A stretch of 64,000 nucleotides of DNA. It comes from Isoetes taiwanensis (taxonomy: Eukaryota > Streptophyta > Lycopodiopsida > Isoetales > Isoetaceae). Under the pieces are notes generated by a model that was given only the letters and a program-made list of their open reading frames with translations, did not search any database and was not told where the DNA came from. A program made the translations under genes and the position numbers. Below are positions 1 through 61,723 of this stretch, piece after piece. The stretch lies in assembly GCA_021234155.1 (NCBI GenBank), contig JAJEKV010000049.1, positions 2,757,487-2,821,486 of the forward strand. The letters are read 5' to 3'. The number at the start of each line of letters is the position of its first letter. Position 1 is the first letter of the stretch.

Positions 1-189
1 TTTAGAGGCATTTTGCTCTGCAGAGAGCATGGAACTAGTATTGGGGATGTTTGCGAATGAATTGAATACCTTCTTTGGCTGCTTGCTTTGCAAGGATGTG
101 GCATATTTCTTTCCTTGTAAGATGGCCTTGCCATCTACAAGTGAAATTTTGATCGATCTTTGGAATGTAATGTTTCTCAAGGGCTCAAT

Positions 190-2179
190 AGCACGGTGAC
201 CTAGTTGATCTCTTGAAAAATCCATTCCTTGAAATCATAAGTTTCTTCCAATAACTTCGATGTACGGGCGAGGATTGTAGGAATCTTGGATGACCTCAAT
301 CATGGTGGGAGGCTTTTTTTTTCGAGCAAGGCGTTTAGAGAACCTCTTGAACATCGATCAAATTTGGTCGTGTGTATGACCAACAAGCGGGGAAACCAAT
401 CTTCACCTTCTTGAAGATTTGTTTCTCTACTAGCATAGCTGATAAGCAAACAACGCTGATTCTTATTTTCCTTGTCGTGTTATCTAGTGAAGATGAGAGC
501 CGGCGGTATATGTTCTAGATTGGAAAGAAGCTTATTCAATATTGTGATAGTGAGATTTGGATCAGCATGAATGTTTGGATAATTCAAAAATGCCTTGCAA
601 GATAGTTTTCCATTAAATACCATAGCACCAACAACATGCACGGATGTATGAAATCTTCTTGTTGAAACATCCTTAGGCACATTGACAAAATGTGGTAGGG
701 TGGTCTTCTTCTGGTCCATTCCATCAATAACAAACCGATATGTAGTTGAGTGGTTGTTCGATTGCTTTCTTCCTATGTTTTGTCAATTTTCTCCTTTCCA
801 AAGATTGTTGTTCTGCATTTGTTCGGTTTCTCCTTCAATGCATCCTGAAAGGAAAACATGTTTAGGAAAGAACCTACTTTTAAGTAGAACTAGGCAAGAA
901 CACGCCCGGAAGCTTACTTTTTAGTGTGAAGTGTCCTTGCATTTTGTCTCTGAGCTTTTAATTCAGAGCATGTAGCACAAACAGACATCCTATGCTTTCT
1001 AGGAATGGCCACACGAGAAAACTCTTTTTTCCAGAGCACAGTAAAGTAAGAGTAGCAGACAAAGCGTTCTCCAGCCTCAACACACATCTCCTTATAATTA
1101 TCGTAGACTTCTTGTTTTAGTGAAATTGTCACTCAAGTGGTACATAGGGCTGTTAGGGAGTTTCTCACAAGACTCCTTAAAGAAACCTTCCATCCAGGAA
1201 ACACATTGAAGAGCATGAATTCTAGTTATGCCTCCTGAATGGCAGTAGTCATTGATGCCTGGATTCTTGTCAAGCCTTTTCTTCAGGCGGTCAAGTCGTC
1301 TGCTGCCTAAAGCATGAATCAATTTGAAGGCCGTTTGGCAGGGGCGGTGTGGCCACCAGTGTGTAAGTAAACTTCTCACCATCATCGGCCTAATATTGAA
1401 GGCTAAGTAGCCCCTTTGGTCTAGCGAGTCATTGAGCTGTAACTATCACGAAGCAACCTCAATTCCTTTAGTCCAATCTTAAGCAAACAACGTTGAGAAC
1501 AATGATTGCTTTGTATGTGTTGCCATAAGTGAGCCTCGATCCATGAGTTTCTTTCTTCTAGCGGTTGTACATCTTTGTCTTGTGTAAGTTACGCTTAAGA
1601 TTTTTTTACTTGGGGGCTTTGAATTCGAACATGGAGTCTTGTGGCTTTGGTAGGTCCTCGTGCCCGAGACATCAACATGAGGTGTTTCTTCGTCGAGAGA
1701 TCAACATGAGGTGTACTTGTAGATCTTTGAGAGGTTTGATGTGGGCAAGGCACGGGGGAGGTGCTTTCCTCTCTCACGGGAAAAATGTCGAGGCTGGTGG
1801 CGTAGTTGACCAGCTCTGAAATGTCGTAGAACCACGGGGAGTTGCGTGTGTCATTTGCTCCCACTTGTTGTAGTACCATTTAGCGAAATGGATGGAGTTG
1901 GTGTGATTTGCCTCCGTGGAGGGAGCCTACGGTGGACTATGGGCGACGTACTAAAATGAATTGGAGGAGGTAGTCTGACCTCTCTAGCCTGAGGCGGGGT
2001 GAAACGCATTGGTGGGGGGGCACGACGTTCAGAGCGTGTTGTGGTGGAGTAAATTGAACTGGTGGTGGAAGCCGAGGTGGTCTTGCTGGAGCAAACTCAA
2101 CAGAGCTGGGTGTTGGAATGTCGGATGTAGAATATTCGTGGCTACTTCCTGGTGTCTGTTGAGGAGGTGTGAAAGCCAT
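190..2179 (-). pseudogene. Decayed DUF7869-family protein gene
   Basis: Reading from 2179 downwards, the pieces occur in the order of this family. A Pro-rich N-terminus starts MAFTPPQQTPG. It is followed by GEKFTYTL and CQTAFKLIHALGSRRL (about 1340-1270), SLKQEVYDNYKEMC (about 1125), and a block with FVCYSYF, FSRVAIPRKHRMS and CATCSELK (about 1050-950). Next come IDGMDQKKTTLPHF (about 728-690), HDKENKNQ (about 475) and a GFPACWSYTRPNLIDV block (about 395) where relatives carry a G-H-T-H motif. The gene is dead: frames change near 1340, 1130 and 900-730, and a stop lies just before HDKENKNQ. DUF7869 proteins are widespread and often repetitive in genomes. A DDE-transposase-like role is suspected here only by inference. 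The gene runs divergently from the ParB-methyltransferase gene and shares its palindrome-filled upstream region. The family call is fairly safe; the exact start and exon structure are not. Confidence 0.72.
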
Positions 2180-2236
2180 TGCGGGGAGGAAGCCCCGCGA
2201 ATCGGGAGTTGGAGGCTCTGAGTTCTTTTTCTCGAG

Positions 2237-3057
2237 CCATACCGGTATAAATTTATCTGAGTGGGTATAAATTTATCTGAGGAAGAAAAAACTTAAGGGG
2301 TAGAGATCGTATAAATTTATACGGAGATGGTATAAATTTATACAGAGGAGGGCAACATAGAACAGAGCGGTATAAATTTATACGAAAACTCACAGACACT
2401 TGTATTGAAAACTTTATGGAGAAGCGCTATATGAAGCGGCACTTAGCAGAGGTACTTAAGCCGGGCGCCGGCCACCCTATTTTCTATATACGCATTTGGA
2501 GTCGATATGCCATGGTCGCGGCTTATATACCCCCTTATTTGCTCTCTGGAACGTCTATACGCGGGTCTATACTGTCATGGCCACGTAAGTCTACTACCCG
2601 TACTGTTCTAGTTTCTCTTTTGTTTTAATCTGCTAGAGTGTAAGCGCTTACGGTATAACTTTATACCGATATGGTTCTGGATCGGTATAAATTTATGCTG
2701 CGTAGTATTGGCGGTATAAATTTATACCGCCGAGCACGCGGCGGTATAAATTTATACCGTTCGAACTAAAATTCGTATAAATTTATACCGATATATAATT
2801 CTGATTCGGTATAAATTTATACCGCAGGTGCTCGAGCGGTATAAATTTATACCGTTCCAGAACACAGTCGGTATAAATTTATACCGCTCGAGCACCTGCG
2901 GTATAAATTTATACCCGACCGTGTCTCGAGCGGTATAAATTTATACCGCCGAAAGCACCTAGGCGGTATAAATTTATACCGATCGGTATAAATTTATACC
3001 CGTGTCGGAAGAGCGGTATAAATTTATACCCTTTCGGCGGTATAAATTTTTATACCG
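2237..3057. repeat. Palindrome array A between the divergent genes
   Basis: Nineteen copies, perfect or near-perfect, of the self-complementary unit CGGTATAAATTTATACCG. Five variant copies lie at 2240-2400 and fourteen at 2651-3057. Several are exact 18-bp palindromes; others have one arm altered (for example ending TATCTGA or TATGCTG), and one has an extra T at the centre. Spacers are short, mostly about 10-30 bp, and differ from copy to copy, although GCTCGAGCACCTGC-like spacers recur in both orientations. Each unit carries a TATAAA on both strands. The array fills the space between the start codon of the DUF7869-like gene (2179) and the first coding sequence of the plus-strand gene (about 3218). 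Confidence 0.93.
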
Positions 3058-3670
3058 ATCCAGAACCATTTTGGAATCTTGGTGTCTAGTGCTTAAAGAA
3101 GTGTCGCAAACCTTAAAATTTCAGTAATATTCTTGCGTTTTAAGCTTAAATAACACAAATAAAGTGATAATTTAGTGTAGATTTTATGCTCTTTTAAGCC
3201 TCTATTTTTCTTGTTTTATGGTACAAAAGGTCGAAAAAGGTTCTGTTTCTTGCATAAAAATGGCCTTCTTTACGCTTTTTCCATTTGAGGATCAAGTTTG
3301 TAAACAAGGGCCAGTCATCAAAAGGCGCACCAATAGAGCCACGGACATGGCCCGAAAGACCCGGGCGTGTGGTGCGCCCACGGGGGTGCAAGAGAGAGCA
3401 AACCCACTGAGGCGTACCTTTACTTGTGTCATCAATCAGGGAAGGGCAAGTACAAGAGTGACGATTATTACCCTGCCGGCGAAATTATCAACCTTATTGC
3501 TACAGAGGTCGATGATGAAATCTTAATGAAGTGCATGCATGACAAGGGGAAGTCTTCTACGTTCTTGAAAGTAAAATGCTTCGAATAAGCATGTGCAAAC
3601 CCAAAGATGTGCAAGAGTACGTGGCTGACAATTACAAGAGTGGCCATGTAAGTATTGTTTAGTGTCTTTA

Positions 3671-3687
3671 CGTATAAATTTATACCG
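3671..3687. repeat. Single palindrome copy inside a 70-bp intron
   Basis: One CGTATAAATTTATACCG unit lies in the middle of the intron 3648-3717 of the ParB-methyltransferase gene. The intron has a clean GTAAGT donor and a CAG acceptor that join KSGH to DIVDILMS. Confidence 0.85.
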
Positions 3688-4738
3688 TCATCTTCCTAAC
3701 TTAACCCTGCATTACAGGATATAGTGGACATTTTAATGTCAGTTGTGCTTTGCGAAGAAACAAAGTTGGTCAAAGGTCTCGGCACCGACTCCTATCGAAG
3801 AGTTTGAAGAGAAGGACGAGGAAGTAGAAGAAGAAGAGGAAGAGGAACCAGTGGTAACAAAGGGAAAGGGTAGAAAGCATTCCCTCGTAGTAGATACACA
3901 GGCTCCTACAAAAAAGAAATCTAGAGGCACAAAGGCTTTGACTATAGAGGAGTCAACAGAAGCTCTTCAGAAGGCCCCTGGAGCAGATATTGTTGTGAAG
4001 CCTGCAGATAAATCAAGTGCTATTCTCAAGCGGGTGAATGACACTAAACTGCTAAAAGCAAACTATTTCTTTGACATTGAGCACCATTAAGAGGCCACCT
4101 AAAAATGAAGATGGGGTCGAAAGTGCTCTGGTCCGGAAGCTGTATGCGGCACATGTGGCTATACTGAAACAAAGAATGAGAAGAAATCCTCATGCCCATG
4201 TGTCGCCACTAGTTGTTATGGTGGACAGGAGTCAGTGCAACCAACTAAAAGATTACAAGAAGGTGACTTGAAGATTACACATACTACGTTCTTGGAGGCA
4301 CACATAGTTACAAGGCAAGGAAAGAACTAGCAAAAGAGGAAAGCCAGAACGAAGTGTGGAAGAGCGTAGAAGCACATATATACGTTGGTGTAACGGATGA
4401 AGAAGCAAAAGTCATTGCCGTGAGTCATAATCTCGACAATGACTTTGATTAAAAAATGAGTTTAATAGACAAGATCCGTTTCATGCACCGTGAGTGCACG
4501 TGGAATTTAAACAAATGTATGGAGAGATTTTTAAAAAGCAAAAGAACAAGCTGCGGGAGCTTGAGAAGCCTGCGTGATGTAGTCTTTGCCTCGACTATGA
4601 CTATGATAAGAAGCCCATTATGGCAATAAAAAGCAATCACGATAACTACTTTCAGCTGGCATTCAGAGATGGTCAAGTAAGAAGCTGCTCTTCTTTCTAT
4701 GTTTTGTAGTGTTTAGCGTGTTTACAAGTGCCTTCGCA

Positions 4739-5102
4739 CGGTATAAATTTATACCGTGCGGGCCCACTGATATAAATTTATATCATGACTAGGCACGCGG
4801 TATAAATTTATCTGCGTGCTTAGACGCGGTATAAATTTATACTGTGCCTAGTATTGATATAAATTTATACCATAGTGGCCCGTGCGGTATAAATTTATAC
4901 CGTCCCTAGTCGCGGTATAAATTTATACCGTGCCTAGTCGCGGTATAAATTTATACCGTGGCGGGGCACGGTATAAATTTATACCGTGGCGGACGCGGTA
5001 TAAATTTATCTGCATGACTAGGCGCGGTATAAATTTATCTGCGACGACTAGTCGCGGTATAAATTTATATCCGGTGTCGGGGATCGGTATAAATTTATAC
5101 CG
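4739..5102. repeat. Palindrome array B, 13 regularly spaced units in an intron
   Basis: Thirteen copies of the 18-bp palindrome or its variants start at about 4739, 4769, 4798, 4827, 4856, 4884, 4912, 4939, 4969, 4995, 5023, 5053 and 5083. The period is therefore 26-30 bp. Two copies have TGATATAAATTTAT in place of the CGG arm, and several end TATCTG. Spacers of about 9-14 bp share a CCTAGTCG/GACTAGGC core that is partly self-complementary. The array starts about 60 bp after the donor at 4677 and stops before the next exon, so it lies wholly in an intron. Confidence 0.93.
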
Positions 5103-6182
5103 CGTGACTACACACCATGCGTGTTTAGAAAGTAGGCGCAACATATTCTCTTACGCTAAGCAACACTAAACTAATGGCGTTTGTCCATTTACGGTGTGGG
5201 ATCTTCAAGAAAGAATTTTTGTATGTTGAAGATGGTGAGCTTAAAGAGCAAGCCCGACTCAGTGAAAAAAACCAAAAAGGGTGGAGAATTAAAACAGAAA
5301 AATATGAGCATTGTACCACGGACGCGATTCTGAGGGGATTAAAAAGCAAAGAAATTTTTGTTAGCCTTTTGGAAAAAGTCGTGGCCAAGGAATTTACATT
5401 AGGCGAAATGGCCAAGGAAGCTAAGGCGTAAGCCACATTTGCAATGCCGTCTTTCTTCTACATTTTCTCGGTCTTACAACATGTTTCTCTTTGCGGTCGA
5501 AAGACATTGTTACCGCCGGCCGAAGTTAATGAAGCGACTAAACCTTGAGGATGGGAGGAGTGCAAGCTTCTCTACCCAAGTTGTACCAATCGATAGTATT
5601 ATTAGAGAGCACGCCGTTAACTTTAGTGGTCGGGTAAGTTTTGCTAAAAATATGTTACGTGTTTGTGCCTTTTTTTCTCACAATATTCTTCTGAGAACAA
5701 GAAAAAGGGGCTCCCATTTGGATTTTTTAAACCTGGGTTCGTAGGGCCAAGGAAGAGAGGCGAGACTTAAGGCAATCGAAGCAGGGGAAAGGAGGTCGCC
5801 ACTAGCAGCTTTGACACTTCTTATGAAAGATTTACAACGTTTGGTCGACTGCATGTACTGAGTTGTTGAGGGTGGCCTGACGAGGTCGGGGACACTTTTG
5901 GAGAAGCGAGAACTTCACATTATGCATTGCGGATATTCCCTATGGTTTCAAAATTAAGGGCCGCTTTTGACGAGGAGGCTTTCACGCACGCGTGCAAGTC
6001 CACTCTTTTTTGGAAGGCCTAAAGGAAGTCACCTTATCCGCTAACGGAGGGTCATTATTTTCCATTCGGACCTACAAACAATGTCGATTGCTTAAACCTA
6101 TGGGAGCCGCTCATGCGTAATGCTTGGGCTTTGGCGCATTTGGTAAGCTTAACATTTAACGCTTTTCTTTTTAGTAACTCCA

Positions 6183-6348
6183 CGGTATAAATTTATACCA
6201 CAACCGCCCCTAAGGTTTAAATTTATATAGCAAGGCAATGTTCGTATAAATTTATACGACTGTACCGCTGGTATAAATTTATACCGCATAAAGGCAACCC
6301 CGGTATAAATTTATACCGCAAGGCAAACCCCGGTATAAATTTATACCG
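6183..6348. repeat. Palindrome array C in the last recognised intron
   Basis: Six copies: two exact CGGTATAAATTTATACCG units at 6301 and 6331, three single-arm variants, and one strongly changed unit (GGTTTAAATTTATAT). A donor at 6143 (CATTTG|GTAAGC) precedes the array, and methyltransferase motif X/I coding sequence follows from about 6570. The array is therefore intronic, as arrays B and the single copy are. Confidence 0.9.
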
Positions 6349-7079
6349 CCACACTCTTGAGCTAACTTATTTTCCTTGTTTTTATTTTACTAATATTTCA
6401 TTGTTGTCTTTGTTTGGCGGGGCTTAAAACAAACGTTAAGGGTCATGGTGGTGGTCCGCGCTTAGTAAGTTGTTTGAGCACTTTCACATAGGGTTTTACA
6501 AATGACAGACGCCAAAAAAACCATGGTTCACTTTAATACGCTAGGAATGAAAAGACTCCCCCGCAATGCGTTTTGAGTTCGGCGGTTTTGCAAAAATTAA
6601 GAGACCCACAGCGACAATTTGTGGTGTCCCATTATCGAAGCCACGCCGACTTATAAATAATTTGATGATGGTTTTTTCGCCAGGGGACTGGATCTTAGAC
6701 GCATTTTCCGCTCGGGCACCCGCGGCGGTTTGCCCTTAAGGGCGCAATGTTGTCTCCGTCGACATAGACCCGGACAAAATAAATTTCATCGGGACCGGGG
6801 ATAAGCTCTTGTGAATCCTTTCCCCGATGAAAACGAGGAATTGGGAGCAAAAAATGGTCTTTGGCGATGTAAAAGGCACATATCTGAGAAATCCAGCCTC
6901 CACTTACGGGAAGAAGAAATGAGGAGGTGGAGTTCGCCGATCCGAGCCTTGTGGTGCTCGAGCCGAGAAACAAACTGCACTGCACTACCATTGGAATCGA
7001 GAGGGCGTCTCGCTATTATAACCTCGCAAGAGACCCGATCCTAAGGGGAGAGAGAGAGTCACGTGGATTTGGGAAGAGC

Positions 7080-8290
7080 CACCTCAGAGTATAATTTTTA
7101 TCTGAGACAAACATTTTAAACTATCTTTCATTGTAATCTATGTGTTCTTAATTTTAATATATTTTGATGAAGATTTCTCAACTGAAAACTTTGTCTCTTC
7201 AACAATGCTTAATTAGAACAATTCTTTTTTTGATTCATGATTTCAGACTCTTTCTCTTTTCTATGTTTGATTTTCTTAGTACTTATATTAAGCTTGCAAA
7301 AACACAAAACTATATTTCCTTCTATTTTCAACAACAAATACTTAATGAGTTTTTAAATGTAATGTCTTTCTCCTCAAAACAAGCTTTTTTTTTTTTTGCC
7401 CTTCTTAAAAAATGAAAAGGCTTCAAAAATGTTGCTTTTTTTGGGGTATTTCGAATGCTATTTGCTCAACAATCTATTTTGCTCCCTATTTTGTCCATTT
7501 TTTTCAAGTTTCCAATTTTTATAAAGGAATCTTTCAAACGCACTTCTTAAATAAGTGCGTTTCATTTTAAACCTTGTTTTCCATGAAAAGGGGGATTTTA
7601 AGGAGTTTTTTATGGGGGATTTTAAGGAGGATATGGGCATCGTTTTTGATGTGTAATAGTTATTTTTTGCAATATCAAACAAATTGATTGCTAGATAAAT
7701 ATTTCAACCCATTCCTACATATCCTAGACATATCATCTTTGAACTACTTAAGCTTCGTTCGAGATGCGTTTGACAAATAATTAATCAAAAAAATTTACAA
7801 TCATATATTAATCTAATGAATGAATTGTACAATTCGAATGCATAGAACTATAAAAATAGTTGTATTAAATGTTAGAAAATAAAAGGCTTCATAATTTTGG
7901 AAAGGGATTTGAACCCCACAGCATTTTGAAACAATGAGACTACTCAACATCATGTCATCGTCATTTTGGGGCCCTCAACATTATGTTATATAACTCATGA
8001 GTCCTTGCATCATGACAAAGAAAGATTGCATCTGCTATTACAATTAAGACTTCTTAGTCTTTATCTTTGAAGGCTCCCAAAATTTTGAAACCTTGACACA
8101 CATTGCCAACAAGAGGACCAAGCTCTATTCTGAACAATTAAGCACTTTATTTAGACCCAAATAACATCTTCCTGTCCATCTCTGCATGAGTATTATATTG
8201 TGTTCAGATCAACGTTTTATGGAGCCGCCATAAAAGAATAGAATAGAACAGAGCTGCCATCAAAGAAAGTACAGAATTTCACAACACAAA
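7080..8290. other. AT-rich spacer, no gene seen
   Basis: Base composition drops abruptly to very AT-rich at about 7080, just after the last methyltransferase-related sequence. That makes this a candidate right-hand edge of the region 1 element. Short ORFs here look like chance products of T/A runs. No terminal inverted repeat or target duplication was found by eye. Confidence 0.6.
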
Positions 8291-15809: not shown

Positions 15810-17073
15810 TTACGTCAGGATGGCTATTACGCATTGCATATAGGGCTTTCCATCCGTGGCCCGACCCTTCTTTCTACGGTCATCCCATAGTATGTTAGCA
15901 GAGAAATCGATTCCCGGATACTTAAAGGTCCTTACAACTTCCATCCTTTGTCCTCTGTAATAGAAGTGCGGGATATCATCTTTGCGTGAAGCGAGGATTG
16001 GCAGCATGCTTGGTTTTTCTGGTTGGTTGGTGTCATTCTGCTATGTCCGCGTAATTTGACCGAGAGCATCAAATGTTCACGCATACTCACGTCGTATGGG
16101 ATAATAAGCCCGGATCGATGCGCATAGAGCAAAGCTTTTTTCTTGTATATGCCTCGGCAAGCTGCGGGCCACCACCTCCATGTTCTTGCATCCAGATCTC
16201 CAACTTGTCAATATAGAGTCCAAAAAGCGTTGGAGATAACGGGCATCCCTGTTTAACACCTATGGTGCTGTTCACCCGGTGGTCTGACGCAGGCAAAGTG
16301 GCATATATTCCGTCATACAGCCGGTAGATGGCATTCTGCAAATCCTGTGGGACATGTAGCTCCTGCAAGCGTTGCCACAACAGGTCCCGAGGGACCATAT
16401 CATATGCCGTCTTAAAATCCATGAAACAGCAATACAGGTCACATCGTGCATTGCGGCTAGCTTCCATAGGGATTTTGAGAGTAAAAATATGATCACTCGT
16501 GGAGTGGGCAGGGCGGAAACCTGCTTGGCCAACTGCACGCACTCCAGTTTCCTCCGCCCATTGCATTAACTTCTTCTCCAGCACCCCTGCTAGAAGTTTT
16601 GCGAGTAACGGGCTCACCATGATCATATGGTAGTTGGTGGAGTCATCCCTGCTTCCCGTCTTATGAATAGGGGTGACCTTGCTAACCATCCATTCCTGCG
16701 GGAGGCCCTCTCTGATGGCCTGATTGATTATCCCTGTCAAAGGTCCGAGCAAAGCTGGCCCACCCCATTTCAACAGCTCGGCCTGAAGTCCCTGCAAGTC
16801 CTTTGCTTTACCATTAAGAAGATGCCTAAGACCCTGGTGGATGTCCGCCTCTAAGAGCTGCAGTGTTTCTCCTAGTTGATCTGGCACGTCAGCAATTGCT
16901 CCTGGTGGGTCATACAACTCCTCCAACATTTGTCTCCACCGGGTGCGGTAATATTTCAGTGGTTGATGCCTCTTATACAACACTCTACGCCAAAAGGCTT
17001 TTGGCTCAGTCATCAGTAGATCAAACATGCGTTGCTGATTTTCTGCAATGTAGCGATGCTTTTTGGATTTCAA
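15810..17073 (-). pseudogene. LINE A reverse transcriptase domain
   Basis: The frame 17073-16087 holds the RT finger and palm motifs: WMVSKVTPIHKTGSRDDSTN, AGFRPAHSTSDHIFTL, YCCFMDFKTAYDMVPRDLLW and IGVKQGCPLSPTLFGLYID. Where LINE copy B has LIYADDVDLL, this copy reads LLYAHRSGLI in another frame (around 16120). Both catalytic Asp codons of the active-site box are gone. Downstream pieces such as FYYRGQRMEVVRTFKYPGID (about 15920) match the thumb region of copy B. Confidence 0.9.
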
Positions 17074-17184
17074 GAATGCCTTATAGTTCCTAATGGCCTG
17101 TGGCCGGAGCTGTAGATCTAAGATGGTTCGTAGCTGACTCTTTAGAGCCTTACATTCCGCGTCAAACCAGGGGTTTTGAGGGAA

Positions 17185-18166
17185 TTAATTACCTGATGTC
17201 CCCTGGCGGGGAGCTTTCTTCTTTGCAAAGCATTTCAGGCTGGCTGCGAGTAAAGCTTTCACCAACCATTCACACTTATCATGCAATGTATAGAGGGCAT
17301 CAATCCCCTGTAGCTCACATTCAAGCTCCACCTCATATCCTGCTTGCTTCCTATAGTTCGGGTTGTATCCCAAACCCCGGGGGTGCCTGTCCTGTGGCCA
17401 CGCCACTGAGTGCCTCCAATCCAAAGTGACATAAAGTGGATAGTGGTCTGACAAAGTCTCTTCATCTCTTGTTCCTGTGCTTGTCGCGAAATCACGAATG
17501 ATATCAAGTTCTGGCACTGGAACTAGGAGATAGTCCACCACACTGGCTCCCCCATTGCCCCCGCCGCCACGGAAGTGAAGCCCCCCGATCGTGCCACACA
17601 GGCATACCATTGCAGATCACCATGTCAAAGATCTGACATAGCTGGACCAACTCTCTTACAAAGGCTCCGGAGACTGTATCCTGGGAGCGTCTTGCATGCT
17701 GGGATGCCTTCGTTTCTAACCAAAGTGGGTTGGAGTCAGCATTTCCCTGAAAGGTGACCGACTGGTACTGTGCCGTACGTGCATTGAAATCTCCCAATAA
17801 AAACACATGACCCTCCTGGCGATACTGCTCTATGTCATCATACAATTCTCTATAGGGCATATGCACATCTGTGTTTGCCTGATGCACCCTGTAGAACTTA
17901 GAAGTTTCATGGGGTATATAACATACTGCTCTAAACAGTGGGCGATGGTGAGGCTGCAGCACTCGTATCCACAGGTAGCGGTTGAGTCTATCAGCCTTGT
18001 GGAGTGAGACTGTGGATGCTATAGCATCTTTGAAGTAGCACGCGACCCCTCCATACCCTCGCTTGCCATGGTGCTCATTGGCCAGTGAGAAATGATAGTA
18101 CCCTGGGATGTCCGGCAACAGTTGACCGCTATATTCCCATGTCTCTTGCAAGAAGATGATGTCCAT
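17185..18166 (-). pseudogene. LINE A AP-like endonuclease domain
   Basis: The frame 18166-17504 contains IIFLQETWEYSG (metal-binding Glu), GYGGVACYFKD, and FLLGDFNART (Asp/Asn box). The domain continues in a shifted frame (17610-17185) with DYLLVPVPELD and ETLSDHYPLYVTLDW, the terminal SDH motif. The order and spacing match the exonuclease-endonuclease-phosphatase fold used by LINEs to nick target DNA. A frameshift lies near 17560. Confidence 0.9.
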
Positions 18167-18179
18167 GCCTGCAGCAATT

Positions 18180-19441
18180 TCAGCAATGCCGCCGCCAAGG
18201 CGCTTGTGGAAATCCCCTCACGGTTCCCGACACAATTGAAGGCACTCTTCCTATCTCGCTATGCGTGGTGACTACCGATCCCGATCCCCATGGAGGGTGC
18301 GGGGAGTTGGGCCATTGGCAGTCTTTGGGGCTCTCATGTCCGGCTCTTTGTGGGTGGTGCCGGTACTTGGTCCTGGCTGGCGTATGCGATCCGCCATTCG
18401 GAAGTGGGGGATCGAAATGCACAGTCCCCGGTCGGGCCGCCTGCCATTTGTTGGCCGTGGAGGCACAAATACCTTCATCTTGCCATTCACCGGGCCTGCC
18501 GATCCCCCGCCTACGACTGTCTAATCTTTGCGCACTCCTCCGCCTCTCCTTACGTTGAGCGGGGTTGGATCCGTGTCTAAGTACGCCGATGTCCCCTTCA
18601 AGCGACTAAGCGGCTGCGGCATCAAGCGTCTTCGGCGCTTGGTCGAGCTGCTTTGTGAGTTTAACTAGTCGGGGTCTCATGCTTGGCCCTCAGGCTACGG
18701 TCGAGTTTCTTATTGTCAAGTCTTTGCAATTGGAGCCTTGCCAAAACCAGGGGCATGGAGCTTATTTGGGAGATCTTCCCCCGTTCTTGGGCAAGCTCTG
18801 ACGACAATGTTGGGTCGGCCGAGGTGGCGGTTCTTCTTCCTCATGAAGGACCCGTCTAATTCCCTGTGCAACCTCTGCCTCAGGTATTGGGCATGGTGGT
18901 GGTGCTGCCCCTGTAGTGGTACTTATGCGCTTCATGCATGCATGCGGATCATACATCTCTCTTTGGAACTTCGGCCATCCTCTTCTCAAGGGCGAAAGCA
19001 CGGCGCTACCTCTTGACTCTCGGGTTGTCTCTTACGCAAGGTGTCCACCCTCCCTACATCCAGAGACATTGTAGCCTCACAGTGCCAAGCCGGCCGTCTA
19101 GGGCAACCAAGCTGTGCAACTGCGCCACTTTACTGTCGAGCTCGTTTTACAGCTGTACCACATCCTCTGACATTTGCCGTTGGAGCTGCTCTAGACATCG
19201 GGTTGCATCGCTGAGAGTGCGAGACATCGCTGTCACTTCACTTCTTAGCTGGGCAACAGTATCACGTGCTTGTCTGCGCTCAAAGTTAGCTAGGCCAAAA
19301 GCAGTCATCCAGTGGCCTGATGCGCTCTTCCAGCGTCGAGATACGTTCTTTCTCTTTCATCAACTGTTTCTTGAGAATAGCTGCCGGCTGGGTATCCCTT
19401 TGCATCTCCACACTGCCCGGCTTGTCACGAGATGGCGTTGA
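18180..19441 (-). pseudogene. LINE A ORF1-like region with coiled coil
   Basis: On the minus strand the stretch 19390-19090 reads KEKERISTLEERIRPLD and VAQLRSEVTAMSRTLSDATR, heptad-patterned coiled coil of the kind found in LINE ORF1 proteins. Pro/Arg-rich pieces (TGAAPPPCPIPEAE; RPTNGRRPDRG) follow. No zinc knuckle was recognised, and several stops interrupt the frame. Confidence 0.5.
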
Positions 19442-27544: not shown

Positions 27545-28345
27545 CAATGGCGTAATAAATGCAAAGTGCACACATGTCGTGCTTTGATAATTCCTTAATA
27601 AATGCAAAGCGTAGCGCAATAAATGCAAAGTGCACACACATCGTGCTTTGATAACTTCATAATAAATGCAAAGCGTATTAATGGCTTAATAAATGCAAAG
27701 CGTATTAATGGCGCAATAAATGCAAAAGGGTATTAATAAATGCAATAAATGCAAAAGTGCACACATGTCGTGCTTTGATAACTTCGCAATAAATGCAAAG
27801 CGTATTAATGGCGCAATAAATGCAAAGCGTATTAATGGCCGCAATAAATGCAAAAGGTAATAATGGCTACAATAAATGCAAAGTGCACACATGTCGTGCT
27901 TTGATAATTCATAATAAATTCAAAGCGTATTAATGGCCAAAAAAATGCAAAAGTGTATTAATGGCCGCAATAAATGCAAAGTGCACAAATCGCCATAAAT
28001 GCGATGAATGCAACGTGTCATCCTATGGTAATGCTCATATCTTCCTCCGCCATAAATGCTCATAAATGCCTCAAATCACGAAATTAATGCCCTTAATAAA
28101 TGCTTTATAATCAATGAATGCACACAATATTCGATGTTATTAATGGCTGCAATAAATGCTTTACAATCAATGAATGCACACTGTACACGTGTCATGTAAT
28201 CACGTCAACATCACGAAATATTCGAGTTTACCGCAATAAATGCTTTATATAATCAATGAATGCAAAAATGAATGCAAAGAAGGTTATTAAGTGGCCGCAA
28301 TAAATGCTGCAATAAATGCTTTATAAGTAATAAATGCACACAAGT
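27545..28345. repeat. Degenerate repeat field built on AATAAATGCAAAG
   Basis: About 800 bp with some thirty copies of AATAAATGC plus recurring longer strings GTGCACACATGTCGTGCTTT and GCGTATTAATGG. The four long units near 27555, 27620, 27740 and 27870 show a higher-order, irregular periodicity. Divergence increases towards 28.3 kb. No coding potential. Confidence 0.88.
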
Positions 28346-42170: not shown

Positions 42171-42319
42171 ACGGTGCCATTAGTCAAAACGAAGAAAAGA
42201 ATGTTGAAATCACACACGGAAGCATACAAGAGGAAGGGGAAGAGGAGGAAGATCAAATTCAAGCTTCAGGGGAAGAGGAAGAGGCAGAGGTCGAAAAATA
42301 AATGCTGAGGCAAATGTGG

Positions 42320-43859
42320 CAGAATTGATGAGGAAAAATCTGAAGACGATGATGAGGTAAGAAAATTTAAATTATTTTCCATATGTGAAAATCTAAATGA
42401 TGACAATCTTCTGATTTTAGATAGTGGAGCAGAAAGGTCAATTGCATGCTCATCAAAAATCTTGAAAGATTGCAAAGGAGCTAATGGAGGCCATGTGCAA
42501 GTAGGAAATGGGGATTTACAGAAAATTAGAGATGTTGGTGTACTTGAAATCTTTGATTTGAATGGAAAAAGTGTGAATTTGAACAATGTTCTATGTGTAC
42601 CAAGCTTGGTCAGAAATCTTATATCTATTTCTCAACTTGTGGACATGGGTTTTAAAGTGGTGTTTGAACAAATGGATTGCAAAATATATGAAGGAAATGA
42701 ATTAGAAAAACTGGGAAGACGAGTAGGAAATCTGTTTGGAATAGATTTACATGGACATGGAAGTATCAATCTAGTTACAAATCCTGATGTAGAAATCTGG
42801 CATGAGAGATTGGGCCACACTAACATCAAAAATATTGAAATGATGGTTAAGCAGGGATGGATTAAATCAGCAGATGAAGTCAAAGAAAATTTCACATGTA
42901 AAGGCTGCCAGTTAGGAAAACACTCAAGATTACCATTCTCAAAGGCAAAGAAGAAAACAAAGGATGTGCTTGAATTAATTCATACTGACTTGTGTGGACC
43001 ATTAAATGTAACAGGAATTACAGGGAAAAGATACTTCATAACTTTTGTGGATGACCACAGTAGGAAAACAAAAGTTTACTGCTTGAAGACTAAGGACTTA
43101 GCTTTTGAAGCATTCAAAACATTTGCTGCAGAGGTCGAGTGTGAAACTGGAAAAAGAATCAAGTGTGTTCGATCAGACAGAGGAGGTGAGTATATGTCTG
43201 GTAGATTTACAAAATATTGCTTGAATAGGGGAATAAAAAGGCAATATACATGTAGCCACACACCTCAATAAAATGGAGTTGCAGAAAGAAAGAATAAATC
43301 AATCCTAAATGCTGTTAGATCTATGCTTAAACATGCAGGGTTGCCAAATTTCCTTTGGGAAGAAGCAGTAAAACTCTTTGTCATGATTCAGAATGTTTTG
43401 CCAACAAAAAGCCTTCAAGGTACAATTCCAGAATATGTATGGTCAGGTAGACTACCTAATTTTGAAAAATATAAAGTGTATGGGTGCTTGGGATATACAC
43501 ATGTGCCTAAAGAAAACAGATCGAAGATGGATGATAGGTCAATCATAACCTATTTAGTAGGTTATGATGAACATGCAAAAGGTTATAGAATGTATAATCC
43601 TATGAGAAGAAATATCATAATTAGCAGAGATGTTACCTTTGTGGAAAAGGAGTTGTACAGGCCAAGAATAAATATCCATGATAAATCTGAAACTAAGGAA
43701 AGTCAGGTTCCAGAATTCGATGAGGATGAACAGAATAATGACATTCATAAGCAAAATGAAATTATTGAACAGGATATACCTGAGGATGAAAAGGATGCAG
43801 AAAATCATGGTGTAGATCTGAGCCAAGAAAGAAATGCGAGAAGAAGAAAATGTTCATGA
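42320..43859 (+). pseudogene. Copia protease-integrase region
   Basis: Protease active site DSGAERSIA (about 42420). The pre-integrase region has VEIWHERLGHTNIK and the zinc-binding CKGCQLGKHSRLPF. The integrase core has ELIHTDLCGPL, FVDDHSRKTKVY and CVRSDRGGEYMSG, followed by HTPQ, a TAA stop at 43269-43271 and NGVAERKN. The intact family motif is HTPQQNGVAERKN, so one Gln codon became a stop. The frame then continues to 43859 with FLWEEAVK and GCLGYTHVPKENRSKMD. Confidence 0.92.
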
Positions 43860-47930: not shown

Positions 47931-47978
47931 TAAGCTGAATTGTTCCCTTGCCTTGTTCATTCTAGTGTGGCATTATCC

Positions 47979-48735
47979 ATGAACCTTAGAAGCAACCGAG
48001 TTGTAGCTACCATTCCTACAGTTCCCTCCCATGGACAACCATCTCCTCAACCATCTGCTCCCAAGAAAAAGAGATGTGCTCAACCTGACTTAATTCAGCA
48101 GGATCAAAATTTTCCTGTAAAGAAGTACATGAGATCTGCTGTTAGAGGGTCATGGACTGAAGAACAAATGAATGAGGCAGTTGATGCCATAGAGGATGGC
48201 ATCATGTCTATAAGGAAAGCATCATCCCATTTTGGTATACCACAAACTACATTGAGGAACCACTTGTATGGGATAACTGAAAATAAATTTGGTTGTGTTC
48301 CTAGGGTATTAACTGTGGATGAGGAGAAGGCCCTAGTAGAGTGGTCATTGAAACTTAGTGATGAGGGCAGAGCTGTACATACACTTGATATTATGAGACA
48401 AAGGGTGGCTGAAATGGTGATTAACAGGCAGACCACATTTACAAATGGTCTGCCAGGCAAGAGTTGGTGGCGAGGCTTTAAAAGAAGGCATCCAGAATTA
48501 ACATTGAGGTCTGCCCAATGTGTAGAAGTCCTAAGAGTGAAAGCTATGACTTCTAGCAACCTAAACAATTTCTATTCTACCTTAGAGAGCATTTACCATG
48601 ACCTTGACCTTGATCCATCTCGTATATGGAACTGTGATGAAACAGGGATTCAAGCAGGAAATAGAACAGGCCTGAGGGTTATTGCTAAGAAAGGTGTAAG
48701 AAATGTGACCGAGACTGTCCCTAAGAGTAGAGCTC
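47979..48735 (+). pseudogene. pogo/Tigger-like transposase, C-terminally truncated
   Basis: The ATG at 47979 gives a basic N-terminus, then a psq-type helix-turn-helix (WTEEQMNEAVDAIEDG, SIRKASSHFGIPQTTLRNHL; residues about 60-95). A CENP-B-type second helix-turn-helix follows (EEKALVEWSLKLSDEG, GKSWWRGFKRRHPELTLR). The DDE domain opens with SRIWNCDETGI (first catalytic Asp) and VTETVPKSRARF. The remaining catalytic Asp residues are absent because the palindrome array at 48738 replaces the rest. Relatives of the Tc1/mariner pogo group run about 450-550 residues. The 252 codons that remain before the array are free of stops. Confidence 0.88.
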
Positions 48736-48737
48736 GA

Positions 48738-49060
48738 TTTGCGTTCTTCACTCTGAGCTGCCTTTGTCGAGAAAGGCCATTAGAGGGGCCTTGAGGGTCT
48801 TTCTCGAGAGTCGAGAAAGGCCCTCAAAAAACTTGTTTTTTCTACTAAAAAAATGTTTTTTTTTGGGGGGCTCTGAGCTATGTTTCTCGACTCGCGAGTC
48901 GAGAAAGACCTTCAGAGGGGCCTTGCGGGCGAGAAAGGCCCTCAGACCTGCTTTTTTTATTCTGAGCTTCCTTTCTCGACTCGCGAGTCGAGAAAGGGCA
49001 TCAAACTTGCGTTTTTCACTTTAAGCTGTCTTTCTTGACTCGCCCTCAGACCTGCTTTCT
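48738..49060. repeat. Array of CG-rich palindromes replacing the transposase 3' half
   Basis: About three to four diverged units of roughly 95 bp. Each has CTCTGAGC, a palindrome centred on CTCGACTCGCGAGTCGAG, then CCTTCAGAGGGGCCTT and GGCCCTCAGACCTGC. The two full palindromes (48883-48906 and 48972-48995) are exact over 24 bp. A partial one lies at 48800-48818. The first unit begins inside the transposase frame. Confidence 0.88.
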
Positions 49061-60679: not shown

Positions 60680-61390
60680 CTAGTGGCCCTGATCATACAA
60701 CTTCGCCCTGTGACTATTGTTTTGCATTGCGTACAGCGCCTTCCAACCTGCGGTCACCCGAAGGCGAATGGATGCATCCCAATACATTGAGGACGGAAAT
60801 TCCACCCCCAGGTACTTGTAGGCGGGTGTAACCTCTACCATTTGCCCACGATAAGTGGCCGGAGGTCTTTGGACGGAGGAGGATATGAGGACCACCTTAG
60901 TCTTGGCGAGGTTGACATGCATGTCCGTGCAGCTGGCGAGAATGTCGGGGGCATCTAGATGTGCCTGCATGCCCTCTGGTGTATGGGCCAAGAGGTCCAC
61001 ATCATCCGCATAGATGAGCTGCCGGATGACCTGGTGCAAGAGCTGTATACCATCCCCCCCATTGGCAGCAAGCCAGGCTTCCAACTGGTCAATGTAAAGT
61101 CCAAAGAGTGTGGGTGAGAGAGGACAACCTTGCCTAACTCCAATGCTACTGGCAAATGACAGTCCTTCCGGTTGCATGCGGCCTGTGCAGCTCTCGTACA
61201 GTCTGTACACTGAGTTCTGCAAATCCATAGGGAGCCCTAGATGGTGCAATCTCGCCCACAACTTTTCCCGGGGTACTGTGTCGAAAGCTTTTGCAAAGTC
61301 CACAAAACAGCAGTACAGGTCCTCCCGACGGTTCCTGCTGTTTTCGACCAGGGCCCTGAGTGTGAAGATGTGATCAATGGTCGATAGGGA
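60680..61390 (-). pseudogene. LINE B reverse transcriptase, C-terminal half, intact active site
   Basis: Open frame with STIDHIFTLRALVENSRN, YCCFVDFAKAFDTVPREKLW, IGVRQGCPLSPTLFGLYIDQ, the catalytic LIYADDVDLLAHTP, NLAKTKVVLIS and AYKYLGVEFPSS. Unlike copy A, the YADD box is kept. The fingers and the whole endonuclease are missing by 5' truncation. Confidence 0.92.
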
Positions 61391-61723
61391 GTAAAGGGAT
61401 AGAGGTTTGTAGTTGTATTTGAAATAATTGGTGCATGAAGTTTGTGCTTGGATGACAAATCTTACATGATGAATATTGCTTTTTATTGCACACATGATGG
61501 AAAGTTAACACATGAATCTAAATTCGGATCAGCTCCTCATATTACTTATTATCTTTGATATTATATAAGGTTAGAAAATATATCAACTTGAGGAGACATA
61601 ATGATAATTATTCTTGGAAGGGCAATTAAACGCATAAATATAGAAAGCAAGTCATATTCTGAACTGACCTCTGATTTTTGGACTTGGAGCATAAGCTAAT
61701 GATTAATGACCTTTCCCTTGAAA

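Follow-up and report, generated by a model that had tools for sequence, protein, structure and literature searches.

A TIR DNA transposon of Isoetes taiwanensis with a ParB-like/methyltransferase gene and family-specific palindrome arrays: a candidate self-marking system

The element and its two divergent genes

A decayed member of a DNA transposon family, 8.9 kb long (~8871 bp), occupies the left edge of the window, that is, the whole stretch of 64,000 nucleotides of Isoetes taiwanensis analysed here (contig JAJEKV010000049.1). Its transposase gene (minus strand) and its ParB-methyltransferase accessory gene (plus strand) form a divergent pair. The features are given below in window positions.

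-1293..-1264, no strand: left TIR, pairing with the right TIR in 29/30 bases
1..7578, no strand: the DNA transposon as far as it falls within the window; 1293 further bases of it precede position 1 (locus L037)
1..2272, minus: transposase gene, decayed, extending left beyond the window; DUF7869 region at 480-782
687-725, minus: DGMDQKKTTLPHF, within the DUF7869 region
2244..3050, no strand: array of the GGTATAAATTTATACC palindrome between the two divergent genes
3337..3650 (approximate), plus: exon E1 (N-terminal), decayed, from translations; counterpart in L042 at 4690-4944
3670, no strand: single palindrome in the small intron after exon E1
3718..4676 (approximate), plus: exon E2 (ParB), decayed; conserved block 4267-4449, GT donor after DGQ
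4294-4329, plus: GGTHSYKARKEL, ParB-like block peptide
4390-4431, plus: VTDEEAKVIAVSHN, ParB-like block peptide
4739..5102, no strand: palindrome array in the intron following exon E2
5195..5430 (approximate), plus: exon E3 (LRCGIFKKEFLYVEDGELKEQ...), resembling L042 E3 (6317-6544)
5495..5632 (approximate), plus: exon E4, decayed, resembling L042 E4 (6617-6751)
5702..6143, plus: exon E5, first methyltransferase half; ADIPYGF also in L041 and L042
5932-5949, plus: DIPYGF, motif IV, in exon E5
6186..6349, no strand: palindrome array in the intron between exons E5 and E6
6430..7090 (approximate), plus: exon E6, second methyltransferase half; the L042 counterpart (7422-8156) is open
6635-6655, plus: SKPRRLI, in exon E6
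6680-6718, plus: PGDWILDAFSARA, motif I (changed), in exon E6
6749-6769, plus: VVSVDID, motif II, in exon E6
7549..7578, no strand: right TIR, followed by the target duplication TTCC at 7579-7582

TTCC lies directly outside both ends of the element as a 4-bp target duplication, and such duplications were identical in 9/9 copies with both ends readable. With its TIRs and its target duplication of fixed length, the window element is a TIR DNA transposon (class II), and an element-encoded transposase was also found (DUF7869 in the relative L019). The 4-bp target duplication is shared with the Sola superfamily, the length being stated for Sola2 in the available part of PMC3627910. The window transposase gave a PF25273 match at E 2.5e-5 and 24.4 bits, below the cut-off of 26, and DUF7869 was matched in L019 at E 3.2e-51 (Pfam). 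Position and conserved acidic residues suggest that DUF7869 is the transposase; none of the papers searched mentions this domain. Of the 20 main-family copies fetched, 15 gave transposase matches, as did L041, L042 and the window copy; the copies checked had been picked for methyltransferase matches.

Both domains of the accessory gene lie on one strand, opposite the transposase, in consecutive exons with GT/AG borders, and the exons are probably joined into one spliced protein. The initial annotation had read the ParB block, DIPYGF, SKPRRLI, motif I and VVSVDID in this order and in one direction across several GT-AG introns; all of them were recovered in that order, on the plus strand. A gene does lie at the coordinates then proposed (3218..6930), but these were too narrow, the element extending from -1293 to 7578. 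The DUF7869 transposase, terminal repeats, target duplication, palindrome arrays and copy number go beyond that annotation. The window copy contains stops and frameshifts, its motif I reads SARAP versus SGSGT in relatives, and tblastn of exon E2 gave 33% over 214 aa with 8 stops. Since the I. taiwanensis assembly is Nanopore-based (PMC8566536, available part), some of the frameshifts may be assembly errors.

Identity of the methyltransferase and ParB-like parts

When eight single plus-strand ORF pieces of the window were compared with Pfam at a limit of E 10, neither ParB nor PF01555 was found and the only two matches were unrelated and sub-threshold, so that the identification rests on relatives. 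L019, which has the same exons as the window copy, matched PF01555 over the cut-off (E 6e-18, 66 bits versus 26.7), and a profile of three relatives matched CcrM at E 8.6e-13 over profile positions 51-294 of 296. On the strength of these profile matches the enzyme is assigned to the beta-class DNA methyltransferases of PF01555 type, as initially claimed. The alignment, read by eye, has the motif order IV, X, I, II. Among named matches DNA adenine methylases score best, and motif IV reads D(I/L)PY; two N4-cytosine enzymes are also among the profile matches (E 0.005-0.01).

At least 150 methyltransferase matches in the genome exceed the Pfam cut-off (150 of the 150 scored, from 1443 first-look candidates), 26 of these 150 having stops by a count made by eye, and several fetched copies retain the catalytic motifs. 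With the 61-aa ParB piece of the window (4267-4449), 1797 first-look candidates were recovered, and the 150 scored were 88-100% identical. Given these many near-identical copies and the PF01555 and CcrM matches of relatives, the window peptides are not due to chance.

The evidence for ParB is less strong than that for the methyltransferase and lies at profile level only. The hhalign comparison of the ParB-like profile with plasmid ParB proteins gave E 8.3e-5 (probability 61%) against 0.32-0.9 in controls (eight column shuffles and one reversal), in a test that is not independent because the partners were chosen from weak plasmid matches. One of three ParB-like pieces matched TIGR03764 (0.0024), the ParB-like part matched phrog_1033 (0.0012), and the window-family ParB had a single plasmid match, unannotated. 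GGNHSFKA of this part lacks the arginine usual in the ParB nucleotide-binding motif. The profile search of the PDB returned no ParB chain, and DHFR-TS chains recovered there by a short match (0.002) were taken as chance. For the 61-aa piece of the window the predicted fold (pLDDT 59) was uninformative and was left unused. The ParB claim of the initial annotation is thus upheld as profile-level similarity but not by PF02195, for which nothing in the genome exceeded the cut-off (two candidates, best E 1.49).

Among phage records, 813 had distant matches to the methyltransferase at E up to 0.01, with 23-26% identity in the 20 listed, and nothing beyond chance level turned up for the ParB part (6 records, best E 2). 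Pattern-based scans of viral_contigs and genome_contigs with short peptides found no viral or prokaryotic relative. A mobile element carrying its own modification enzyme, as first proposed, is supported; a phage source and intron gain in the plant lineage are conjectural.

Palindrome arrays, selection and recombination

All three families examined have arrays, which lie within the promoter region common to the two genes and within introns of the methyltransferase gene. Their palindromes all fit GTAT-N6-ATAC with family-specific centres (AAATTT, TCCGGA and GAATTC), a rule that was drawn from two families, written before the third was read, and held in the third. Five element stretches contained 9-28 occurrences of GTAT-N6-ATAC versus a Markov mean of 0.04-0.10. 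In 10 copies, coding-matched bases held 0 of 133 sites, 73.1 being expected. We counted 125 sites in 17 copies of the main family, 78 in 3 of the window family and none in shuffled sequence; three of the 20 main-family copies (L013, L022 and L026, with 7, 0 and 5 sites) are omitted from this count and likewise from that of central dinucleotides. Site conservation was 1.66-1.69 bits per base versus 0.12-0.37 in the flanks, the former inflated because sites were found through their similarity to the motif. Genome-wide, tandem pairs numbered 1918 for the window palindrome (control 0), 668 for the main-family 26-mer (control 0) and 64 for the third family's palindrome (control 11). When further palindromes were sought at other loci, most of the pieces ended short of the arrays. 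Among altered central CG pairs, 47/50 were TG or CA, changes that point to host 5mC at the sites.

The location of the sites bears on what may read them. They could be transposase binding sites, comparable to the subterminal repeats of CACTA/Spm, with the methyltransferase timing transposition by marking DNA in a Dam/IS10-like manner; transposition would then be the sole link between the two. The transposase diverges between families (67-78% identity) along with the palindrome centre, and could therefore be the palindrome reader; many sites also lie upstream of its gene, for instance 13/24 in L042. However, no palindrome was seen in the terminal few hundred bases of the copies examined, the nearest lying ~0.5 kb from the right end (L042), and the methyltransferase gene, part of the half that recombines apart from the transposase half, has arrays in its introns as well. 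We consider this explanation unlikely. It is quite unlikely, in our opinion, that the arrays are promoter or enhancer sites of a host transcription factor for both genes, the methyltransferase acting elsewhere on DNA or RNA. The intergenic arrays do fall in a bidirectional promoter region and introns can hold enhancers, but a centre that differs between families within one genome is hard to explain in this way, and the best named enzyme matches are DNA adenine methylases.

The main-family copies had arrays of 0 to 15 sites. L011, with seemingly intact genes, counted only 1 site because 6/7 of the palindromes in its introns lack 1-2 bp at the centre, and the mismatch criterion leaves out sites with a changed centre length. 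Beta-class methyltransferases are classic restriction-modification partners, and the central hexamers resemble restriction sites. The modification might then shield the element, in place or once excised, from a nuclease, restriction-modification style, rather than from silencing, and the L011 deletions could have been left by break repair, assembly error being the plain alternative. Pfam, however, found no nuclease in nine exon pieces of L019 and L012 (E3 and E4 left out), and we judge such a role very unlikely.

Purifying selection on the methyltransferase module is strong among the copies compared. Mean main-family dN/dS was 0.031 for ParB and 0.057 and 0.029 for the methyltransferase halves, with single pairs up to 0.55; copies with stops or covering less than 75% of the query were excluded, as were pairs with zero or saturated dS (pairs kept: ParB 17/21, methyltransferase 39/105 and 130/153, transposase 6/6). 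As the 20 main-family copies were picked for long open frames, the figures for intactness and selection do not come from a random sample. The ParB-methyltransferase could in principle be a passenger or a domesticated host gene playing no role in the element; such genes are also present in algal transposons of other types, so that capture may be repeated (PMC12477816, available passages). The low dN/dS and the transposase matches next to most of the copies fetched argue against it, and we hold it to be highly improbable.

The methyltransferase half recombined independently of the transposase half. Between L012 and L019 identity is high through exon E1 and drops at E2, and between L019 and L027 it is low already in E1, so that a breakpoint at the intergenic array was dropped. 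We also dropped synonymous change beyond saturation, as under active recoding against small RNAs: NG86 pS in the module looked >0.75, but the fourfold-site difference was at most 0.62 in the four-exon comparison (single exons up to ~0.8, on few sites), which is near saturation only.

Proposed function and related systems

With moderate confidence, we favour a role of the ParB-like/methyltransferase accessory gene in self-recognition, self-marking and anti-silencing of its TIR transposon. The fused protein would most likely recognise the element's own GTAT-N6-ATAC palindromes and methylate the element DNA there, probably at N6-adenine and possibly at N4-cytosine. Either the mark or the protein itself, once bound, may keep the element genes active against host cytosine methylation, by analogy with VANC, and each family would address only its own copies. 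More tentatively, and with considerable doubt, the outer GTAT/ATAC half-sites, the same in all three families examined, might be read by the conserved ParB-like part and the central hexamer be the methylation target of the family's enzyme.

The Isoetes element is a variant of a kind already known from algal transposons, and the palindrome arrays are new here. ParB-methylase transposon genes are known in brown, green and red algae, which makes a plant-specific origin unnecessary; as predicted for Isoetes, one protein with a ParB-like part and an N4C/N6A methyltransferase is encoded by a DNA transposon on the strand opposite to its transposase, and the authors, who refer to Iyer 2011 and Petroll 2025, suggest that it binds and modifies the element's own sequence (PMC12477816, available passages). 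Compared by description, the algal element is 21.5 kb long, whereas that of Isoetes measures 8.9 kb, resides in a vascular plant whose genome has at least 150 methyltransferase matches above the cut-off, and has a DUF7869 transposase. Palindrome arrays, the half-site rule, selection and half recombination are without mention in the algal passages available of PMC12477816.

VANC of Arabidopsis VANDAL21 is likewise an element-encoded accessory protein associated with tandem arrays of short motifs that differ between related families; according to the available part of PMC5735166, its targets are family-specific arrays in introns and upstream regions. Unlike the Isoetes methyltransferase, VANC has DUF1985/DUF287 and causes loss of DNA methylation (same source), and the Isoetes motifs are palindromic, unlike the arrays described there. 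DUF1985/DUF287 were absent from the Pfam matches of the exon pieces scanned (E3 and E4 left out). To our knowledge, VANC has no known enzyme domain. The likeness to VANC would be functional only. With CcrM and other beta-class adenine methyltransferases the Isoetes enzyme shares a catalytic-domain profile match and the permuted motif order, and differs in its motif IV, D(I/L)PY and not DPPY, its ParB-like fusion and its introns. Fungal DNA transposons carrying TET/JBP also have a modification enzyme aboard, read as counter-silencing, but that enzyme is a dioxygenase acting on 5mC and not a methyltransferase (PMC12730594, available part).

In a vascular plant genome, a DNA methyltransferase of bacterial type is present in many copies, and selection has preserved those compared. 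Nuclear adenine methylation in plants, and the enzyme that makes it, are disputed. The predicted address sequence makes the idea of a self-methylating transposon testable at named sites with data of kinds already available, and recombination and site divergence can be traced inside one genome. As proposed, the system would be a second design for sequence-specific anti-silencing, independent of that of VANC. If the two-part code is true, rival families within one plant genome would have mutually exclusive self/non-self DNA-modification codes, and specificities of the restriction-modification style would have found a new use in a eukaryote, that of selfish epigenetic self-recognition.

A DNA transposon with two divergent genes

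The peptides on which the initial annotation had based a ParB-like domain joined to a beta-class DNA methyltransferase were located at 4294-6769 on the plus strand, in the order claimed. The Pfam support it called for was obtained only in part: the window copy alone is too decayed for detection, neither domain being seen in the eight plus-strand pieces searched, and relatives gave PF01555 matches. On the minus strand, the window copy matched DUF7869 (PF25273), the predicted transposase, with an E-value of 2.5e-5, slightly below the curated cut-off. The left terminal repeat begins 1293 bases ahead of the window start, in flank taken from the assembly, and the right one lies at 7549-7578, with 29 of 30 bases matching and TTCC bordering the element at both sides. 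This terminal repeat is common to related copies, and identical 4-bp duplications were found in all nine copies with both ends readable (L010, L011, L015, L017, L020, L024, L025, L026 and the window copy). The feature bearing the ParB-methyltransferase gene is thus a DNA transposon, about 8.9 kb long. The 4-bp length of the duplication fits Sola elements (PMC3627910), to which the element may belong.

Features of the element
Minus strand: DUF7869 transposase gene (3.2e-51 in the copy L019)
Plus strand, divergent from the transposase gene: ParB-methyltransferase gene
Exon E2: ParB-like domain
Exon E5: methyltransferase motif IV
Exon E6: methyltransferase motifs X, I and II

Six putative exons, E1-E6, were recognised in the ParB-methyltransferase gene. 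E2-E6 are present in all three families found, namely the window family (the window copy, L041 and L042), a main family of 20 fetched copies and a third family (L029/L030), and E1 was found in two. The less decayed L041 and L042 both read ADIPYGF, followed in L042 by HYQKPQRLINNLI, RPGDWVLDAFSGSGTT and GRNVVSVDID; unlike L042, the window copy has lost the motif I glycines. The joined methyltransferase exons of L042 matched PF01555 (7.6e-16), phrog_67 (2.9e-22) and phrog_498 (9.4e-21), and a three-sequence methyltransferase profile matched CcrM at 8.6e-13 over almost the whole domain. The predicted product is, tentatively, more likely to be N6-methyladenine than N4-methylcytosine.

Profile-profile comparison of the ParB-like domain with plasmid ParB proteins gave 8.3e-5 and a probability of 61% (controls 0.32-0.9), and TIGR03764 and phrog_1033 also support the label. 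A plasmid tblastn search returned 12 records, and the ten listed were all annotated ParB but had E-values of 0.1-5. Against the label, the window-family sequence gave one plasmid match, unannotated, no PF02195 match over cut-off was found in the genome, a PDB search returned no ParB chain and a search of phage records gave six matches at chance level.

Genome-wide searches covered an assembly of 1,658,258,908 bp in 1110 contigs, built from Nanopore reads and polished with Illumina data (PMC8566536), so that some short indels within repeats could be assembly artefacts. First-look candidates numbered 9903 for DUF7869 and 1443 for PF01555, and the 150 scored for each were all above cut-off, figures which are lower bounds on matches and not numbers of intact elements. 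By our own count, 26 of the 150 scored PF01555 matches contained stops. Since the matches are scattered across many contigs, including one of 53 Mb, contamination is no reasonable explanation.

Elsewhere in the window, open frames at 16090-18217 and 60683-61504 (both minus strand) resemble by eye LINE reverse transcriptase/endonuclease, pieces of a Copia-like polyprotein lie at 42309-43856 (plus) and a 286-aa frame at 47934-48791 (plus) resembles the start of a pogo/Tigger-type transposase, both also judged by eye. A tandem array at 27550-27983, with a unit of 27-28 bp (AATAAATGCAAAGCGTATTAATGGC), is dissimilar to the element palindromes.

Family-specific palindrome arrays

The palindrome GGTATAAATTTATACC is abundant between and within the genes of the window copy, and all 36 occurrences of its core ATAAATTTAT in the 64-kb window fall inside 2247-6335. 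The main-family palindrome, CAAAGTGTATTCCGGAATACACTTTG, is unlike that of the window family and has a period of 41-42 bp. Arrays occupy the intergenic region in both families, together with the E3/E4 intron in the main family and the E2/E3 and E5/E6 introns in the window family. Neither motif was seen in the other family's copies (17 main-family and 3 window-family copies). Both share a GTAT-N6-ATAC frame around a TCCGGA (main family) or AAATTT (window family) centre, a rule set down from these two families before the third was found. The third transposase family is 78% identical to the window family and 68% to the main family, and its flanking stretch L046 carries five occurrences of GTATGAATTCATAC, distributed between the intergenic region and the intron following E2. 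L046 contains nine GTAT-N6-ATAC within 4.8 kb; the centre is of the window-family type in one and mixed in three, which are possibly intermediates of motif change, and these lie beside its own type at 273-921, in the intergenic region. At G000:C4:9726-14244, window-family arrays lie less than 5 kb from a main-family palindrome, the elements of the two families being neighbouring or nested there.

In five stretches, 9-28 GTAT-N6-ATAC were observed per stretch against a Markov expectation of 0.04-0.10, and the remaining 56.4 kb of the window held none. Exact matches counted across the genome, with the reversed pattern as control, were 1918 vs 0 (pairs of the window-family palindrome), 668 vs 0 (main family) and 64 vs 11 (third family), and third-family sites adjoin PF01555 matches at C1037:14962111 and C1059:1168217. 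Motif columns carried 1.66-1.69 bits, values inflated by the gathering of sites by similarity to the motif, vs 0.37 and 0.12 in the flanks (125 and 78 sites). None of 133 sites in 10 copies fell in coding-matched bases (73.1 expected). The central CG was altered in 50 of 125 main-family sites, in 47 of these to TG or CA, a pattern that reads as the trace of 5-methylcytosine deamination.

Main-family copies hold 0 to 15 sites. L011, with genes that look intact, yet has one by the similarity criterion. Compared with L012 (6044-6318, methyltransferase orientation), six of seven intron palindromes of L011 (6050-6282) have a deletion of 1-2 bp exactly at the centre; the two copies are 97% identical and differ over 4.2 kb by 25 indel events, six of which are these central deletions. 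The deletions may represent Nanopore miscalls at modified bases, repair of breaks or plain decay. Variant palindromes with a shortened centre, a change like that in L011, were also seen in L016 (3758-3879) and L028 (3687-3820): GTATTCGAATAC, and GTATTCCGAATAC in a 38-bp array.

Selection and exchange of element halves

Table. dN/dS in the main family, saturated pairs left out
Part: mean; median; single-pair maximum
ParB: 0.031; 0.041; 0.19
Methyltransferase, halves: 0.057, 0.029; 0.087, 0.031; 0.52, 0.55
Transposase: 0.21; 0.196; 0.28

The compared copies had been picked because their open frames were long, and this choice brings dN down somewhat. The L041/L042 pair agrees with the main family, with a transposase dS of 0.13, saturated synonymous sites in ParB and E6, and dN of 0.054 (ParB) and 0.092 (E6). 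L012 and L019 are 96.6% identical in the transposase half and 79.5% in the ParB-methyltransferase coding half, and L014 and L016 show the opposite (88.5% and 98.6%, respectively). Among the 91 measurable pairs of 190, the transposase half was the more similar in 69 and the ParB-methyltransferase half in 22; fourfold sites in 78 pairs gave the same picture. Recombination has therefore brought together old methyltransferase modules, conserved at the protein level, and transposase halves that differ from them in age.

A candidate self-addressing modification system

A palindrome kept while spacers drift, placed in different introns by family, non-exonic in the checked copies and with a family-specific centre, looks like a binding site coevolving with a reader protein. 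The element's site-specific DNA binders are likely to be the transposase and the ParB-methyltransferase; the latter is favoured as reader because sites are absent near the transposon ends and present inside the recombining methyltransferase half. The quillwort arrays share their architecture with the targets of VANC, an Arabidopsis VANDAL accessory protein, whose targets, according to PMC5735166, are family-specific tandem motifs in VANDAL introns and upstream regions, and whose action removes DNA methylation.

The Ectocarpus transposon Sola1-1_Ec32 likewise encodes a ParB-like and DNA methyltransferase protein opposite its transposase; PMC12477816, which describes it, also refers to examples from green and red algae and proposes that such proteins modify their own element. 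ParB-methyltransferase genes in transposons are thus already known from algae, and the Isoetes element is a variant of that kind. A literature search lying outside most subscription journals found no report of such a gene in any land plant, Isoetes included, and none of comparable palindrome arrays. Given the VANC-like architecture and the favoured reader, we therefore propose a self-addressing DNA-modification system, in which the ParB-methyltransferase would bind the element's own palindromes and methylate element DNA, and this modification, or the binding itself, would keep the element promoters active.
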